64,000 bases of DNA, taken from NCBI RefSeq assembly GCF_040907265.1, contig NZ_JBFOHP010000002.1, forward strand, positions 3,930,501-3,994,500. Direction: 5' to 3'. The translations under genes were made by a program, and so were the position numbers. Below the pieces are notes generated by a model. It saw only the letters and a list, made by a program, of their open reading frames with translations. It ran no database searches and was not told where the DNA came from. The DNA is from Streptomyces sclerotialus. GTDB lineage: Bacteria; Actinomycetota; Actinomycetes; Streptomycetales; Streptomycetaceae. Shown piece by piece: positions 50,429 through 59,072 of this stretch (positions are counted from its first letter, which is position 1; each line of letters opens with the position of its first letter).

Positions 50429-51365
50429 CCGGCCCCCCTGGACACGTGCCTGGCGGACACTCGCCGTCGTCATCGAAGCGGGTGCCATTCCGGAGCGCGG
50501 CATGGGCGGTGCCCAGGAGCGTGCGGCCGTGCCGGAAGGCGTGCGCCCGCAGGCGGAGCAGCGCATGTTCCGGAGAGATGCCCAGCCGCTGGGCGAGCAT
50601 GCCGACCGCTCGGTGCACGGCGGCGAACGGCAGGTGATCCACACCGGCGAGCCAGTCGGTGTCGTCCTCGGCGGCCCGCGCGACGGCCCGGGCCAGGGCA
50701 TCGGCAAGCAGCAACCCGTTGCGCAACTGGCCGGGACTCACCGGCCCCGGAACCTTGCGGTGCCCGATGAGCACGCCGAACGTGTCCTGGCCCAGTCTCA
50801 GGGGGAAGGCGAACACCGCCGCCACCCCCAGCTTCTGCATGGCGGACAGCAGGCCGGCCCAGTCGGCCGAGGTGTCGGCGGACAGGGCGGACAGGTCGGA
50901 CACCATGACCATCCGCCCGCTCTGCGCCACGTCGTAGCTGGGGCCCTGCCCGTACACGTACTGCAGGTCCTCCAGCAGTACGGTGAGCGCGCCGCAGCAG
51001 TGCACGGCCTCAGGAGGGCGGTCTCCGGGAGCGAGCAGCACCGCCAGTCCATCCAGCCCCATCCTGGCCGCGCACTCCCTGAGCGGAGGGGAGGAAAGGT
51101 CGAAGTCCCGCAGTACGGCGGAGAATTCGGCCGTCGGCCACGCCAGCCGCATCTCCAGGGCACGTTGTCGCATCTGCTGGGCCCGCAGACGTGCCTGACG
51201 GGTCTGCTGACGCGTCCGACGGGCCTCCGCCCGGACCTGGCGCGTCCGCTCGCACGTGTTCAGGGACCGCTCCAGGAGGACGTACGCCCTGGTCATCGCC
51301 CTGGCGTACCGTTCGTCCTCCGCTGGTCCCGGCTCGCGGACGCCGGCACTGCCTTGAGCAGCCAT
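50418..51365 (-). CDS. Coiled-coil GAF-ANTAR regulator
   Basis: 315 aa. Residues 20-75 are an Arg/Gln-rich helix (RTRQVRAEARRTRQQTRQAR) likely to form a coiled coil. The GAF domain follows (about 95-240: MGLDGLAVLLAPGDRPPEAV; LEDLQYVYGQGPSYDV) and then ANTAR (about 250-300: VHRAVGMLAQRLGISPEHAL). AGGAAG precedes the ATG. It is the fifth ANTAR gene in the window, oriented toward the ATPase gene. Confidence 0.9.
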   Translation of the reverse strand: MAAQGSAGVREPGPAEDERYARAMTRAYVLLERSLNTCERTRQVRAEARRTRQQTRQARLRAQQMRQRALEMRLAWPTAEFSAVLRDFDLSSPPLRECAARMGLDGLAVLLAPGDRPPEAVHCCGALTVLLEDLQYVYGQGPSYDVAQSGRMVMVSDLSALSADTSADWAGLLSAMQKLGVAAVFAFPLRLGQDTFGVLIGHRKVPGPVSPGQLRNGLLLADALARAVARAAEDDTDWLAGVDHLPFAAVHRAVGMLAQRLGISPEHALLRLRAHAFRHGRTLLGTAHAALRNGTRFDDDGECPPGTCPGGPVRE

Positions 51366-51459
51366 CGGTCTTCCTGTTTCTGAGAACCACCGGGGGGCCG
51401 ATAACTCGTGGGACCCGGCAGGACAGTCCCGGCCGGGCCGCTGGAAGGAGGTGTCCGGT

Positions 51460-51473
51460 CAGTTGTACAACTG
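51460..51473. promoter_or_regulatory. Perfect 14-bp palindrome upstream of the ANTAR gene
   Basis: CAGTTGTACAACTG is a perfect palindrome in the gap between the P450 end and the ANTAR start (95 bases upstream of the latter). Confidence 0.45.
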
Positions 51474-51558
51474 CCGCCGCGGAACAGCTTGGCAGATATG
51501 CAAGGTGATCGCCACGCAGTCACCGCTCCCGGGCGGCGGACGAAGAGCCCGGTTCACC

Positions 51559-51589
51559 GGACCAGCTGGACCGCCGGTACAGCTGGTCC
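51559..51589 (-). terminator. Likely terminator of the P450 operon
   Basis: GGACCAGCTG (51559-51568) and CAGCTGGTCC (51580-51589) make a 10-bp stem with an 11-base loop, 36 bases past the P450 stop. Confidence 0.65.
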
Positions 51590-51624
51590 CCGCGCGAGGT
51601 CACGCCGCGGAGTGGCCTCACCGC

Positions 51625-53013
51625 TCATACGCCGTCCACTGCCCGATGGTGTCCCTCCGCCCGGGTCAGACGCAGCGGGAGGTGCTGGAGGCGCCAGGCG
51701 CCCGGCTGGCGGCGGCGTACCTGGGTCTTGAGCATGTCGGGGGCGACGGCCAGGGAGAGGTCGGGGAAGCGTCGCAGGAGGCGGCCGATGGCGACCTCCC
51801 CCTCCTGCCGGGCGAGCGCGGCGCCCAGGCAGTAGTGCGCGCCGTGTCCGAAGCCGACGTGGTCCTCGCCGCGGTCCGTCGCCTGCCGGGCCAGGTCCAG
51901 GCGCTCGGGGTCGTCGTAGTGGCGCGGGTCGTGGTTCGCGGAGACCAGGACGGGCTGTACGGCCTCGCCTTTGCGGATCCGGGTGCCGGCCAGCTCCAGG
52001 TCCTCGGTGGCGTAGCGCAGTTGGGTCATCTGTACCGAGCCGCACCGGCGCACCAGCTCATGAACGGCATGGGGCAGCAGTCCCCAGTCCTCCTTGAGCA
52101 TCCGCAGCTGATCGGGGTGGGTGAGCAGGGCAGTGATGCCGTTGCCGATGAGGTGGGCGGTGGTCTCGTGTCCGGCGAGCACCAACGCCATCACGAGGGT
52201 GACCATCTCCGTGTCGCTGAGCCGGCCGCCGTCGTCGTCCTGGGCACGGATGAGGGCGCTGATCAGATCGTCCCGCAGGTCGGCGCGGCGTTCCGCGATC
52301 AGTTCGTGGAGGTGGTCGATGACGGCCGGGAAGGACGCGCCGATCCGCTCGGGCACCAGCGAGGCCAGGTCGGAGCCGAAGCTCCGCCAGCGGGGCCGGT
52401 CCGCCTCGGGTACCCCCACCAGCTCGCAGATGACGGTGATCGGCAGTGGGTAGGCGAAGTGCTCGATGAGGTCGACCACCCCGCCGTCGTCGGCCTGCCC
52501 GGGGAGTGCGTCGAGCAGGGTGTCGGTGATCTCCTCGACGCGGGGCCGCAGGTCGGGGACCCGGCGGGCGGTGAAGGCGCGGGAGACCAGACGGCGCAGT
52601 CGGGCGTGGTCCGGCGGGTCGCTGGTGAGGATCGACTCCAGGATGTACACGCTGTACTCCGCGGGGATGCCGAGTACGTCCATGAGGCGGTCGCGTGCGT
52701 CCGGGCCGGTGCGGCCCGGAACCGAGTACGGGTTGTTCACGAAGCGCGGGTCCCGCAGGACGGCGCGCACCTCCTCGAAGCGCGTCACGAGCCAGATGGG
52801 CGTGTCGTCCATGAAGCGTGCGCGGAGGACGGGGCCCTGCTCGCGCAGCCGGCCGTAACCGCCGAAGGGGTCGGCGAGCAGCTCCGGGTCCATCACGTTC
52901 GGCTCACCGGGATGCTTGCCGATGAAGTCCTGCATGGCGGGCGGGAGGCCGGAAGGCGCGGTCCTGGCCGGGGTGGTCGTCGGGGAACCCGGGTCGGCGG
53001 GCCTGCTCGGCAT
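51625..53013 (-). CDS. Cytochrome P450 of a candidate RiPP cluster
   Basis: 462 aa. I-helix AGHETT (280-285), ExxR motif ELVRR (319-323), and haem loop GFGHGAHYCLGAALAR with Cys395. All P450 landmarks are intact, so it should be an active mono-oxygenase or cross-linking oxidase. The ATG at 53013 has AGAAGGAG about 8 bases upstream; a longer frame to 53130 overlaps the SagB end and is rejected. It lies 58 bases after the SagB-type gene, itself preceded by the 31-codon peptide gene. In known peptide clusters P450s cross-link Tyr, Trp or His side chains of a precursor; this is the likely role here. Confidence 0.9.
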   Translation of the reverse strand: MPSRPADPGSPTTTPARTAPSGLPPAMQDFIGKHPGEPNVMDPELLADPFGGYGRLREQGPVLRARFMDDTPIWLVTRFEEVRAVLRDPRFVNNPYSVPGRTGPDARDRLMDVLGIPAEYSVYILESILTSDPPDHARLRRLVSRAFTARRVPDLRPRVEEITDTLLDALPGQADDGGVVDLIEHFAYPLPITVICELVGVPEADRPRWRSFGSDLASLVPERIGASFPAVIDHLHELIAERRADLRDDLISALIRAQDDDGGRLSDTEMVTLVMALVLAGHETTAHLIGNGITALLTHPDQLRMLKEDWGLLPHAVHELVRRCGSVQMTQLRYATEDLELAGTRIRKGEAVQPVLVSANHDPRHYDDPERLDLARQATDRGEDHVGFGHGAHYCLGAALARQEGEVAIGRLLRRFPDLSLAVAPDMLKTQVRRRQPGAWRLQHLPLRLTRAEGHHRAVDGV

Positions 53014-53071
53014 CGTGCGCTCTCCTTCTGGTGAGGGTTCTCCGGGCACCGGTGGGGCACCGTCGCGCGCC

Positions 53072-54184
53072 TCAGGCGTGGAGGGGTGTCTCCCTGAAGG
53101 TGTCGAGGGTGGCCGGCTGCGGCGCTTCACGCGGTTCCGGGTGGGGGTGGCCGGCCGCCAGGACGTAGAGCGGGGTGTGCCCGGTGTTGTCCAGGGTGCA
53201 GCGCTCCGCGAGCAGCGCGTCGGCGAAGGCTCCGGTCTGGGCCGGGCCCAGACCGAGCGCGGTGGCGGTCAGCGCGAAGGTCTGGCCCAGATGCCCGGCG
53301 TTCAGCAGGCACACGCGGTAGCACCGCGGGGTGTGGTACTTCACGCTCATGCGCTCCAGCCTGGCGGCGAGGACCACCAGGAAGGCGGCGTTTCCCGTCC
53401 ACTCCTGGCCGGCGCACAGACGCGTCGTCTCCTCGGCGGTGAGGCCCTCGGAGAGCAGTTCGAGGGAGTGCTGCAGGCTGTTGTAGTGGTACCAGCCAGG
53501 GGCGACGCCGGCCACGTTGAGCGCGCCGAGGTAGGCGTCGAGTTCCTGGCGCGAGCCGCCGGAGGGGCTGGTGCGGCGGAAGACCGCGCCGTGGCCGCTG
53601 TCGATGAAGTCCACCGGCCCGAAGACCGTGGACAGCAGCGTGGCGAGGGTCTCCAGCGGTACCGGGGCGGTGGTGAAGTCCCGGTGCGTACGGCGGTCGT
53701 GGAGCACCGTCTCGTACGGGGCCCCCAGGCCGGCCCGGCGGCGGGGCAGCAGCAGCCGCTCGGCGTCCGGGTAGCCGGTGAAGAGCACCGGCATGCCTGC
53801 CGTGTCAGGCGTGATGCGGGTGTCCCCGGTGTCGGTCCCGTTGTCGGCGCAGTCGTTCTGCGTGGCGTAGTGGAAGAAGGACGCCTCCGGTGACCACGCG
53901 GCCCACTGGCGGGCGATGTCCTCGTCCTGGGCAGCCGCAGGGCTGTCCTCCGCCAGCAGCGCGCCGGCCCCCGCAAGGGCGGCGACGGCCTCCTCGACGG
54001 TCTCCGGCGCGAGGTGGTCCAGGCTCTTGGCCGCCTCGTCAGGCGTCACCCAGTCCTCGAAGACCGAAAGGATCTCGGCAGCCGCCGGGTGCAGCGCGGT
54101 GGGCGTGCCGTGGGGATAGGGGTGCACGACGAACGTGCCCTGGTGCCAGTAGCAGGTCAGGCAGCGGGAACGGCGAAGGCGCAC
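53072..54184 (-). CDS. SagB-type dehydrogenase (FMN nitroreductase fold)
   Basis: 370 aa from a GTG with GGAG upstream. Residues 5-80 form the winged-helix-like region of the ThcOx/SagB family (CLTCYWHQGTFVVHPYPHG; EILSVFEDWVTPDEAAKSLD). The FMN domain follows from about 150: HDRRTHRDFTTAPVPLETLA (164 on), FRRTSPSGGSRQELDAYLGA (203 on), and RCYRVCLLNAGHLGQTFALT. SagB enzymes oxidise azolines to azoles on RiPP precursors, but the required YcaO cyclodehydratase is not encoded nearby. It may therefore oxidise another bond, for example in aromatic residues. It begins 76 bases after the peptide gene, across a stable hairpin. Confidence 0.88.
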   Translation of the reverse strand: MRLRRSRCLTCYWHQGTFVVHPYPHGTPTALHPAAAEILSVFEDWVTPDEAAKSLDHLAPETVEEAVAALAGAGALLAEDSPAAAQDEDIARQWAAWSPEASFFHYATQNDCADNGTDTGDTRITPDTAGMPVLFTGYPDAERLLLPRRRAGLGAPYETVLHDRRTHRDFTTAPVPLETLATLLSTVFGPVDFIDSGHGAVFRRTSPSGGSRQELDAYLGALNVAGVAPGWYHYNSLQHSLELLSEGLTAEETTRLCAGQEWTGNAAFLVVLAARLERMSVKYHTPRCYRVCLLNAGHLGQTFALTATALGLGPAQTGAFADALLAERCTLDNTGHTPLYVLAAGHPHPEPREAPQPATLDTFRETPLHA

Positions 54185-54222
54185 GAGAACTCCAGCAGCG
54201 GGACGAGCGGGGCCGGGACGAG

Positions 54223-54253
54223 GGACGGCGGGGGCGCGCGGCCCCCGCCGTCC
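54223..54253 (-). terminator. Hairpin between precursor gene and SagB gene (attenuator)
   Basis: GGACGGCGGGGGC (54223-54235) pairs perfectly with GCCCCCGCCGTCC (54241-54253), a 13-bp GC stem with a 5-base loop, 7 bases past the peptide stop. No U-tract follows. Such hairpins commonly sit after RiPP precursor genes to favour the short transcript. Confidence 0.7.
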
Positions 54254-54260
54254 GGTGGGT

Positions 54261-54356
54261 TCACTTGTAGCCGTAGCTGCGGAACCGGAAGATGTAGTAC
54301 CCGGTCCGACGGTCGGTACGGGCAACTGCCTTGGCGTTCATTGCGATCTTGCGCAT
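54261..54356 (-). CDS. Candidate RiPP precursor peptide (31 aa)
   Basis: The gene has an exceptional ribosome-binding site (GAGGAGGTGAC, ending 3 bases before the ATG). The peptide starts MRKIAMNAKAVARTDRR, a basic leader, and ends TGYYIFRFRSYGYK. The tail holds six aromatic residues (Y20, Y21, F23, F25, Y28, Y30) alternating with Arg, Ser and Gly. It is followed by a hairpin, then a SagB-type dehydrogenase and a P450 on the same strand, the order expected of a precursor with its modifying enzymes. A longer frame to 54509 exists but would run through the promoter and operator. The core boundary and modification are inference. Confidence 0.75.
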   Translation of the reverse strand: MRKIAMNAKAVARTDRRTGYYIFRFRSYGYK

Positions 54357-54393
54357 GACTGTCACCTCCTCAGGGGATTCGACAGAATTCGAA

Positions 54394-54418
54394 CGTATGA
54401 CCCGAATTCGGTCATACG
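54394..54418. promoter_or_regulatory. Operator-like inverted repeat upstream of the precursor gene
   Basis: CGTATGACC (54394-54402) and GGTCATACG (54410-54418) are 9-bp arms around CGAATTC. Two further GAATTC-like words (from 54375 and 54385) lie beside it. It is 38-62 bases from the ATG, in an AT-enriched patch, where a promoter should be. Confidence 0.65.
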
Positions 54419-54493
54419 CATGCCCGCTCGCTATCCTGGCACTCAGCACCACCGCCCGAACCACCCGAACGGCGGTACGCGCCGCGCTGCGCC

Positions 54494-54889
54494 TCACCCC
54501 TTCACACACACCACCTGCTTGAGCTTCGCCACGACCTGCACCAGGTCCCGCTGCTGGTCGATGACCTTCTCGATCGGCTTGTACGCACCGGGGATCTCAT
54601 CCACCACGCCGGAGTCCTTACGGCACTCCACACCCCGCGTCTGCTCCTCCAGGTCCTTCGTGGAGAACCGCTTCTTCGCGGCGTTCCGGCTCATCTTCCG
54701 GCCCGCACCGTGGGAGGCGGAGTTGAACGACTTCTCGTTGCCGAGGCCCTTCACGATGTACGAACCGGTCCCCATCGACCCCGGAATGATCCCGAAGTCC
54801 CCGCTCCCGGCCCGGATCGCCCCCTTCCGCGTGACCAGCAGATCCATACCGTCGTACCGCTCCTCGGCCACGTAGTTGTGGTGGCAGAA
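54494..54889 (-). pseudogene. rtcB: Duplicated 3' end of rtcB (C-terminal fragment)
   Basis: Encodes about 130 residues from HHNYVAEERYDGMDLLVTRK to the end KLKQVVCVKG, matching the last part of the intact rtcB at 57637-58893. Nucleotide identity is about 85-90% by eye, and includes an identical 32-base block (54654-54685 versus 57797-57828). Homology stops abruptly at about 54889. It retains the SHGAGRKMSRN guanylation histidine but lacks the rest of the enzyme, so it cannot be active. It marks the far edge of the inserted cargo at 54.9-57.6 kb. Confidence 0.85.
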
Positions 54890-54911
54890 GGCCATGGTGT
54901 CAGGCCATCCC

Positions 54912-55664
54912 TCAGGGCTTGATTGCGGTGATGGTGTGCAGCCCGCGCGAGTCAACAGCGCTGTGCTGGATGTCCAGCCCCTCCGCGCGGCATTGCTCAG
55001 AGAGCCAGGCAGAGCTGATACGGAGTTTGGGATAGCTGCTGGTCTGTAGGGCCCATGTGGCGCCGCAACGTGCGTGGATCAGGTCGTGGACCATGACAGT
55101 GTCTTCGTCCACGTACTCCAGGAAGCACGTCATGACCCGGTTCTCAGTGGCACGTACCTGAAGGAAGCGGTCAGTGCCGGTGAGTGGTGTGGTCAGGTCG
55201 CGGTAAGTAAGGACGAGTCGTCCACCGCCGACCAGGTGTCGGCTCACGTCGGCCAGTAGTGAGGTGACGTCCTTCTTGCTCGGCAGGTGCGTCAGCGTGT
55301 CGCCCATGCATACGACAGCGGCTACGCCGGCCGGTCGGGCGTGCGCCGAGAGTACGTCTCGAATGTCGGCGTGCAGGGGGCGGACAGCCGGCAGGTCCGT
55401 CGCACGGTCTGCCAGCTCACTCAGCAGCGCTTCGCTGGTGTCGACGGCGAGGACGCGGGAGAAACCCAGCTCTGCCAGGGCCAGGCTCTGTGTACCCGGG
55501 CCGCAGCCCAGATCGACCGCGAGCGCGTCGTCGGTGGCGGGTCGCACGCCCAAGTCGGAGAGGACACGAAGCTGGTCGGCGGCGAGTGCGGCGATGTCCC
55601 CGCCCAGCATCCAGGTGTAGTGCGCAGCCAGGAACCGGTCGTAATGATCAGTTGCAGCAGTCAT
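54912..55664 (-). CDS. Class I SAM-dependent methyltransferase
   Basis: 250 aa. SAM motif I is VDLGCGPGTQSLALAELGF; motif post-I VLAVDTSEALL; the DxxxH-type motif VCMGDTLTHLPSKKDV follows. Similar to small-molecule methyltransferases; no substrate is implied. Lower G+C than its neighbours on both sides. It follows the permease gene by 6 bases, so it should be co-transcribed with it. It could modify a product exported by the permease. Confidence 0.88.
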   Translation of the reverse strand: MTAATDHYDRFLAAHYTWMLGGDIAALAADQLRVLSDLGVRPATDDALAVDLGCGPGTQSLALAELGFSRVLAVDTSEALLSELADRATDLPAVRPLHADIRDVLSAHARPAGVAAVVCMGDTLTHLPSKKDVTSLLADVSRHLVGGGRLVLTYRDLTTPLTGTDRFLQVRATENRVMTCFLEYVDEDTVMVHDLIHARCGATWALQTSSYPKLRISSAWLSEQCRAEGLDIQHSAVDSRGLHTITAIKP

Positions 55665-57636: not shown

Positions 57637-58893
57637 TCAGCCCTTCACGCAGATGACCTGCTTGAGCTTGGCGACGACCTGTACCAGGTCGCGCTGCTGC
57701 TCGATCACCTTGCCGATGGGCTTGTAGGCGCCGGGGATCTCGTCCACGACGCCGGAGTCCTTGCGGCACTCCACGCCCGCTGTCTGCTCCTCCAGATCCT
57801 TCGTGGAGAACCGCTTCTTCGCGGCGTTGCGGCTCATCTTGCGGCCGGCGCCGTGGGAGGCGGAGTTGAAGGACTTCTCGTTGCCCAGGCCACGGACGAT
57901 GTAGGACTCCGTCCCCATCGAGCCGGGGATGATGCCCCACTCACCGCCCCGGGCGCTGATCGCTCCCTTACGGGTGACCAGGAGATCCATACCGTCGTAG
58001 CGCTCTTCGCTGACATAGTTGTGATGGCAGCTGATCACGCCAGGGCGGTACTCGACGGTCCTCATCTGACCTTCGGCATCCTCCTGCTGGCAGGAGATCA
58101 CCGGCTCGAAGGTCGGGCGGGCCTTCGCGAACTCCTTGCGGACGACGTCCTGGAAGAGGGCCATCATGATCGCGCGGTTGTGCTTGGCGTACTCCTGCGC
58201 CCAGAACAGGTCGTTGCGGTACGCCGCCATCTGCGGGGTGTCCGCGATGAAGACGGCGAGGTCGCGGTCGACCAGGCCCTGGTTGTGCGGCAGCTTCTGG
58301 GCCTCGCCGATGTGGAAGTCGGCGAGCTCCTTGCCGATGTTGCGGGAGCCGGAGTGCAGCATCAGCCAGACGGAGTCGTTCTCGTCCAGGCAGAACTCGA
58401 TGAAGTGGTTGCCCGAGCCGAGCGTGCCCATCTGCTTCACCGCCCGGTCCTGCCGGAACTTGACCGCGTCGGCGATGCCGTCGAAGCGGGTCCAGAAGTC
58501 GTCCCAGCCGGCCGTGCCGTAACCGTGCAGGCGGGCCGGGTCCACCGGGTCGTCGTGCATGCCGCGCCCCACCGGGATCGCCTGCTCGATCCTCGAGCGG
58601 AGGCGGGAGAGGTCGGCGGGCAGGTCGTCCGCCGTGAGGGAGGTCTTGACCGCGGACATCCCGCAGCCGATGTCGACGCCGACCGCCGCCGGGCAGACCG
58701 CGCCGTGCATCGCGATGACCGAGCCGACCGTGGCGCCCTTGCCGTAGTGCACGTCCGGCATCACGGCGAGACCCTTGATCCACGGCAGTGTCGCGACGTT
58801 GCGCAGCTGCTGGAGTGCGGCCCCTTCGACCGTGGCCGGGTCCGTCCACATGCGGATGGGGACCTGAGCACCGGGCACTTCTACGTACGACAT
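57637..58893 (-). CDS. rtcB: RNA-splicing ligase RtcB
   Basis: 418 aa. VDIGCGMSAV (metal Cys), LGSGNHFIEF, HSGSRNIGKELADFH, CHHNYVSEERY, and SHGAGRKMSRNAAKKRF with the guanylated His347 are all intact. RtcB joins RNA 2',3'-cyclic phosphate and 5'-OH ends using GTP and Mn2+; in bacteria it repairs tRNA or rRNA cuts. The ATG at 58893 follows GAGGAAG; longer in-frame starts up to 59034 add sequence not of the family. About 395 bases at its 3' end are duplicated at 54494-54889, with foreign-looking genes in between. Confidence 0.95.
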   Translation of the reverse strand: MSYVEVPGAQVPIRMWTDPATVEGAALQQLRNVATLPWIKGLAVMPDVHYGKGATVGSVIAMHGAVCPAAVGVDIGCGMSAVKTSLTADDLPADLSRLRSRIEQAIPVGRGMHDDPVDPARLHGYGTAGWDDFWTRFDGIADAVKFRQDRAVKQMGTLGSGNHFIEFCLDENDSVWLMLHSGSRNIGKELADFHIGEAQKLPHNQGLVDRDLAVFIADTPQMAAYRNDLFWAQEYAKHNRAIMMALFQDVVRKEFAKARPTFEPVISCQQEDAEGQMRTVEYRPGVISCHHNYVSEERYDGMDLLVTRKGAISARGGEWGIIPGSMGTESYIVRGLGNEKSFNSASHGAGRKMSRNAAKKRFSTKDLEEQTAGVECRKDSGVVDEIPGAYKPIGKVIEQQRDLVQVVAKLKQVICVKG

Positions 58894-59072
58894 GACTTCC
58901 TCATTCCCCCGAAATGACAGAAAAAGTAAAAAGAGAAGGAAACGCAAAACGCAGACATAGCACCCGATCGGCGACAACGAACCGGCGTGCGTGGCGATGC
59001 GTGCGGTAGACATTGTGTCCATCAGCCGCCGCACGGCGGCAACCGGATTTCGTACGGAAGGAGCCGGTGACG

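Follow-up and report, generated by a model that had tools for sequence, protein, structure and literature searches.

A candidate RiPP cassette of Streptomyces sclerotialus combining a small precursor gene with a SagB-type dehydrogenase and a cytochrome P450, without YcaO

The DNA analyzed here (the window) is a stretch of 64,000 nucleotides of Streptomyces sclerotialus (contig NZ_JBFOHP010000002.1, positions 3,930,501–3,994,500), which carries on its minus strand a cassette of three genes encoding, in this order, a small precursor-like peptide, a SagB-type dehydrogenase and a cytochrome P450. There is a strong case that this cassette consists of the precursor of a ribosomally synthesized and post-translationally modified peptide (RiPP) and its modifying enzymes. 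The precursor gene (54261–54356; MRKIAMNAKAVARTDRRTGYYIFRFRSYGYK) comprises 31 codons and a stop, has homologues 5' of SagB in related loci and in the protein database, and is preceded, as a preliminary description of this DNA had stated, by a strong ribosome-binding site (GGAGGTGA, 54362–54369) located 5 nt ahead of the ATG. The peptide can be divided into a putative leader (codons 1–16, 54309–54356; MRKIAMNAKAVARTDR), delimited by alignment as the portion common to the nearer clades, and a putative core or tail (codons 17–31, 54264–54308; RTGYYIFRFRSYGYK), the border between them being presumptive. The SagB gene (53072–54184) encodes 370 residues from a GTG start at 54184, as indicated by comparison with its relatives, rather than from the TTG of the open reading frame (ORF) list; the P450 gene (51625–53013) encodes about 462 residues and probably starts at the ATG at 53013. 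The short gaps, 76 nt between precursor and SagB and 58 nt between SagB and P450, make it likely that the three genes form a single operon. The cassette contains neither a protease nor a transporter gene, no promoter- or terminator-like site was detected at 51300–55000, and no tRNA lies within the window. A plasmid location was considered and rejected, since a search of 72,556 plasmid records with a threshold of 1e-40 returned nothing.

The assignment of the second gene to the SagB-type dehydrogenases holds: its product passes the NCBIfam model TIGR03605 (109.4 bits versus a cut-off of 78.4), remains below the cut-off of TIGR04511 (145 versus 240 bits), and displays PF00881 (Nitroreductase, E = 1.7e-18) as the only Pfam domain found. 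The closest SagB among the matches listed comes from Streptomyces rimosus (85% identity). The similarity to ThcOx extends over the full length of the protein, N-terminal domain included. The nitroreductase-fold catalytic domain (residues ~140–350, 53135–53767) contains a Lys282–Tyr283 pair (53336–53341), which aligns with Lys201–Tyr202 of McbC, taken here to be the catalytic pair of that enzyme, and which is at least 90% invariant in 71 homologues. Residues 1–98 were modeled with a pLDDT of 94, and the Foldseek and VIA-align rows obtained with this model are headed by TigE, TbiB1, LynD/TruD, MccB, PqqD and PbtF. The N-terminal domain (residues 1–80, 53945–54184) is thus predicted to fold like a PqqD-like RiPP recognition element (RRE), and we propose that it binds the leader.

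SagB-type nitroreductases in RiPP clusters are usually interpreted together with YcaO as azole makers, and the SagB of streptolysin S is an azoline oxidase. The absence of YcaO from the surroundings of the cassette, already pointed out in the preliminary description, extends to the whole 8.28-Mb genome (two contigs), where no YcaO was found by a search that was positive in five of 14 control genomes. Among the 22 other genomes with a SagB relative, i.e. all those with a match in our genus, order and class sets, 12 lack YcaO and 10 contain one. YcaO adjoins SagB in a single case (genome G369, locus L048), the two matches being 144 bp apart, and the next nearest YcaO on the same contig as SagB lies ~123 kb away. 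In L048, the YcaO gene (Pfam E = 9.5e-37) sits directly 5' of SagB, the small precursor was not found and SagB forms a long branch on the SagB tree; this locus is a possible link between the peptide–SagB family and azole clusters.

A protein search with 7997 scored candidates returned at least 209 SagB relatives at E ≤ 0.001, and the hosts given among the 120 matches listed are all actinobacterial. At a threshold of 1e-60, matches were present in 13 of 392 genus, 14 of 391 order and five of 394 class genomes (the sets overlap and each counts the genome of the window), close relatives thus being sparse. The locus comparison relies on 30 distinct loci, namely the window, 12 loci from database records and 17 from the genome sets, after removal of the duplicates L045, L049, L057, L068 and L069 (judged to duplicate L017, L026, L020, L019 and L022, respectively); loci L001–L016, which apart from the window's own are all weak matches, stand outside these counts. 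Peptide and SagB were read together in Streptomyces, Amycolatopsis and Mycobacterium, and SagB relatives occur in further actinobacterial families.

The RiPP-like nature of the small gene, proposed in the preliminary description, is borne out by these loci, 26 of which contain a precursor homologue before SagB. In 24 of them, a small ORF with a ribosome-binding site, lying at most 350 nt 5' of SagB, fits a fixed leader pattern; the other two were recognized by eye (L022, MRKLSITARPMVRTDRGRAGRRTWGPPFSCKNDR; L059, a poor fit). Outside the tested stretches, 981,018 nt read on both strands yielded nine instances of the combination of pattern, ribosome-binding site and size, and three of these nine background matches are additional real precursors; the expected background amounts to 0.003 match per 350 nt, although the pattern was composed after the peptides had been seen, so that this enrichment is not an independent test. 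In L025, L027 and L028, three of the four loci without a recognized precursor, the 5' end of SagB is missing or rearranged; the fourth is L048. The YcaO locus is thus the only one whose SagB is whole and for which no precursor was found. With a profile built from 19 peptides, 14 proteins, all bearing the leader, were retrieved from the database at E ≤ 10; for 12 of these, including the window's own, E was at most 0.06. The genome of the window contains one precursor of this kind (E = 2.5e-11, the next best match being at 1.28). Additional copies occur elsewhere: two identical precursors in tandem in L072, a further one encoded on the opposite strand in L052 and L070, and a further one 5 kb away in L053. 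Such arrangements suggest that the peptide is a substrate rather than a cis-acting leader peptide. Note that SagB is truncated or rearranged in L025, L027 and L028 (Streptomyces monomycini, S. varsoviensis and S. iconiensis), with the P450 inverted in L028, which indicates decay or rearrangement of the cassette in some species. L050 has an in-frame stop near the SagB start, although the precursor gene ahead of it is whole.

Conservation is unevenly distributed along the precursor. In the nearer clades, the first 16 residues are common to all peptides with single departures, following M-(R/K)-K-hydrophobic-x-hydrophobic...R-x-D-R; distant clades retain little beyond the M-(R/K)-K-hydrophobic start. 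The tails vary between SagB clades and are kept within them: WNWTWAYRQA is found in all three loci L026, L046 and L073, whose SagBs are 70–76% identical, and GYYI-[FYH]-[KR]-[FI] in all four loci window, L017, L018 and L067, whose SagBs are 70–84% identical. Streptomyces tails include, besides WNWTWAYRQA, RYYIHEYK and GYYIYKIQGGTAK, and the protein database contains a further tail, ...AGYYIFKFVGSTAK. In ten representatives of the nearer clades, Phe, Trp and Tyr account for 32 of 128 tail residues versus two of 150 leader residues and 5.9% of the residues of surrounding proteins; one Cys is present in the ten tails altogether (nine lack it) and two tails contain no Ser, Thr or Cys. These representatives are mutually related and hand-picked, so that a p-value for this difference should not be read at face value, and the count leaves aside the distant clades (L052–L056, L059, L070–L072), in which the tails are shorter and less aromatic. 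Other tails were read in Mycobacterium persicum and M. attenuatum (L023 and L024, peptide and SagB, tail TSATPFWYPER) and in L058 (peptide and SagB, tail VPFFYREK).

In the window, the putative core contains six aromatic residues, one Thr, one Ser and no Cys. The count given in the preliminary description is therefore right, but the idea that all six aromatic residues are targets is not supported by the relatives, where only Y-Y-(I)-F/Y/H is conserved. More specifically, the final two tyrosines were rejected as part of a conserved core, the SYGYK of the window being replaced by GGTAK, GSTAK or APTSK. Between the window and L017, nine of the 15 tail codons are changed in sense and one is changed silently; strong constraint is thus not evident over the whole tail of this clade, the constraint bearing on its GYYI part. 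A search of 392 genus genomes for the codon pattern of DRRxGYYI gave three matches, the window, G382 and G294; the last was discarded as a chance match, since it falls within a longer ORF and the surrounding 15.5 kb contain no match to SagB or the P450.

The P450 is intact, as had been claimed (Pfam E = 6e-36), and its translation contains AGHETT, ELVR and FGHGAHYCLG, which we take as P450 motifs. It is closest to CYP107Z enzymes, the nearest entry in the PDB being CYP107Z12 (9v2t). At least nine P450s with an identity of 80% or more were found, a lower bound since the protein listing omits the P450 read in L067 and since P450s more than 90% identical to that of the window, such as one from S. 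rimosus, may be hidden in its own cluster. The seven for which the strain is given all come from strains that also hold a SagB relative, on a contig of equal length. Strains CT34, piniterrae, MST-110588 and NPDC057743 possess a second P450, 67–69% identical to that of the window, and the genome of the window itself has a second P450, 76% identical to the second one of CT34; the cassette P450 thus looks like a recruited CYP107Z paralogue. It lies beside SagB in five of the 30 loci (window, L017, L018, L067 and, inverted, L028), and no P450 of ≥80% identity is present in the other 25 within the flanks examined, which vary in length (only ~1.5 kb downstream in L020). The four intact SagB/P450 pairs (window, L017, L018 and L067) are all preceded by the homologous small gene, the check that had been set beforehand, and their tails keep the GYYI-type motif, so that the expected constraint on the tail is observed in the P450 clade; L028 is rearranged. 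The P450 was encountered in no clade other than that with GYYI(F/Y/H)(K/R) tails, and on a SagB tree built by a quick method its presence corresponds to one change, with a branch support of 98 (four of the eight P450 labels come from loci read, four are indirect). Of the 30 loci, this tree includes 26, the sequences of L025, L027, L028 and L051 being too short, together with 26 database proteins. Among the 52 rows, 22 are unlabelled and not counted, three of them inside the P450 clade.

Neighbor comparisons were queried with the genes of two loci from each clade (window and L017 for the GYYI clade). No gene near SagB other than SagB itself and the P450 was common to the GYYI loci, the exceptions being one 47% match at unlike places in L017 and L067 and antisense shadows. 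Precursor, SagB and P450 thus travel together. A class defined by the P450, or by the SagB/P450 pair as first proposed, was nevertheless rejected, as 25 loci lack a P450 of ≥80% identity within the flanks examined (matches of 31–37% lie ~7–8 kb away in L024, L058 and L072). The conserved unit of the family appears to be peptide plus SagB, with the P450 as a clade-specific accessory. Altogether, the comparisons suggest that the preliminary description was right in outline and needs correction as to the role of the P450 and the last two tyrosines.

Other surroundings of SagB were noted in passing. Directly 5' of the cassette in the window lies a 3' fragment of rtcB (54494–54955), 300 nt of which match, with 86% identity, the end of the complete rtcB located 3 kb away (57637–59034); methyltransferase and amino-acid permease genes sit between the two, the fragment resembles a duplication or insertion scar, and genes of this region are not common to any other locus in the neighbor comparisons. 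In the L052, L053 and L070 clade (tails IK(I/V)H(Y/F)QR), genes for an ATP-grasp ligase and a hexapeptide acetyltransferase are found nearby in changing order. In the WNWTWAY clade, the gene 3' of SagB is only 53–60% identical between loci, whereas many flanking genes are 85–99% identical; its product in L046 (~494 residues) has no Pfam or NCBIfam match.

The explanation that we favor, with a probability slightly above even, is a YcaO-independent RiPP pathway in which SagB desaturates the tail and the P450 then, or also, oxidizes the same peptide; the chemistry itself is inferred. The RRE-like domain of SagB would take up the leader as a β-strand, and the flavin center, together with the Lys–Tyr pair, would remove two hydrogens from the Cα–Cβ bond of one or more hydrophobic or aromatic tail residues. 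The products would be α,β-dehydro amino acids. With PflD (see below) as a model, the targets here would be residues of GYYIFRF, giving dehydro-Tyr or dehydro-Phe. Such a dehydrogenation would take the place of the azoline oxidation performed by SagB enzymes elsewhere, and, since it needs no heterocycle, it is compatible with tails devoid of Ser, Thr and Cys. The P450 would hydroxylate or cross-link the conserved Tyr-Tyr-Ile-aromatic motif before or after SagB action. As the cassette has no protease or transporter gene, leader removal and export would be left to host proteins. More tentatively, and with the odds somewhat against it, one may envision a whole RiPP class defined by a self-sufficient RRE–SagB that desaturates aromatic and aliphatic residues of a minimal precursor, yielding dehydro-Tyr, dehydro-Trp, dehydro-Leu and so on depending on the tail. 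Additional enzymes specific to single clades, like the P450 here or the ATP-grasp ligase and acetyltransferase of the IKH clade, would then further modify the peptide at the dehydro residue.

Close to the idea first put forward for this locus, SagB and the P450 might instead act as an aryl cross-linking pair, SagB oxidizing phenols, indoles or a P450-made intermediate so that biaryl or ether bridges form. The aromatic-rich tails of the nearer clades, often with an i, i+2 spacing (WNWTW, WQWRWRW), and the linkage of the P450 to the YYI(F/Y/H) tail are consistent with this scheme. We nevertheless regard it as doubtful: we know of no cross-linking activity for a SagB, the enzyme is kept in clades with weakly aromatic tails, and no RiPP cross-linking P450 could be recognized by name among the best 60 rows listed for our CYP107Z-like enzyme.

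A further scheme, in which SagB modifies the peptide and the P450 is a mere hitch-hiker or uses an unrelated substrate, would account for the 25 loci without this P450 and for its origin from a CYP107Z lineage whose members have other substrates; the matches listed include 'Ema' P450 variants, which act on avermectin. The single change on the tree followed by retention beside SagB in otherwise unlike contexts, and the restriction to a clade with its own tail motif, make this explanation improbable. Even less weight can be given to the possibility that the small ORF acts in cis as a regulatory leader (an attenuator or ribosome-arrest peptide) and that the enzymes act on a small molecule. The short ORF, with its strong ribosome-binding site directly ahead of an enzyme gene and its often basic C-terminus in the family, fits such a role, but arrest peptides are conserved at the C-terminus and variable at the N-terminus, the opposite of what is observed here, and both the extra precursor copies and the predicted RRE-like domain argue for a substrate. 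Finally, azoline formation from Ser or Thr by an unrecognized cyclodehydratase followed by oxidation by SagB, although in line with the family membership of SagB, its full-length ThcOx similarity, its Lys–Tyr pair and the YcaO of L048, is very unlikely given the genomes without YcaO, the lack of a detected precursor in the one locus where YcaO is adjacent and the tails without the required residues.

If the desaturation scheme is correct, a lone SagB acting on precursors of 19–34 residues would add a class-defining chemistry to the RiPPs, and this YcaO-free family would escape YcaO-based mining. The cassette, with its two or three genes, is small enough for reconstitution, and the natural series of tails associated with one enzyme family constitutes a substrate panel for the choice of residue by a YcaO-free SagB, a question that we found raised in the open-access literature only for PflD. 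No description of a YcaO-free standalone SagB with such a precursor was found in that literature, subscription papers not being covered.

The comparisons below draw on the accessible parts of the cited papers. As the preliminary description had it, the cassette could be matched to no known peptide class: it lacks a defining feature of azole peptides, of atropopeptides and of biarylitides. The azoline oxidases ThcOx/CyaGox and McbC share with our enzyme the SagB family, the Lys–Tyr pair and a ThcOx-like architecture; however, the YcaO cyclodehydratase that characterizes linear azol(in)e-containing peptides (TOMMs) is missing from the genome of the window, and the residues needed to form azolines are absent from some related tails. 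The RiPP clusters of marine Synechococcus also bring together a SagB-like enzyme and a P450, but, as far as they are described, they include a YcaO and their cores abound in Cys, Ser and Thr (PMC10783134), neither of which is the case here. Atropopeptides and biarylitides likewise have a tiny precursor adjoining a P450. The former are described with a KSLK leader motif and an xWxxxx core (PMC11450843), whereas the precursor of the window has neither KSLK nor Trp; the latter have a five-residue precursor (PMC13417212), versus 31 residues here. In both comparisons, our cassette differs further by its SagB and by a P450 nearest to CYP107Z, which does not support the earlier view of this P450 as a cross-linker of their kind. 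The cyclodipeptide oxidases AlbAB and NdasCDO have the nitroreductase fold and form α,β-dehydro residues (PMC11055893, PMC11760959), thereby providing a model reaction for Cα–Cβ dehydrogenation; unlike SagB, they act on cyclic dipeptides as two-subunit filaments, and the fold match of our SagB to them is no better than to ordinary nitroreductases.

To our knowledge, RiPPs with a YcaO-independent nitroreductase include one characterized example. In the MNIO–nitroreductase PflD of Pseudomonas (pfl/pos clusters), the nitroreductase domain is described as converting Phe into Z-dehydrophenylalanine in a YcaO-free cluster; in the same source, nitroreductases that are not tied to YcaO, or are fused to an MNIO, are said to be rare and functionally uncharacterized, others being suggested to form dehydro amino acids (PMC12636437). 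Our SagB differs from PflD in that it has no MNIO fusion, carries the RRE-like domain itself and is associated with precursors of 19–34 residues with another sequence. Going by that description, both systems nevertheless combine a nitroreductase-fold flavoenzyme with a ribosomal peptide and no YcaO, and it is among the RiPPs with a YcaO-independent nitroreductase that the sequences would place the cassette of S. sclerotialus.

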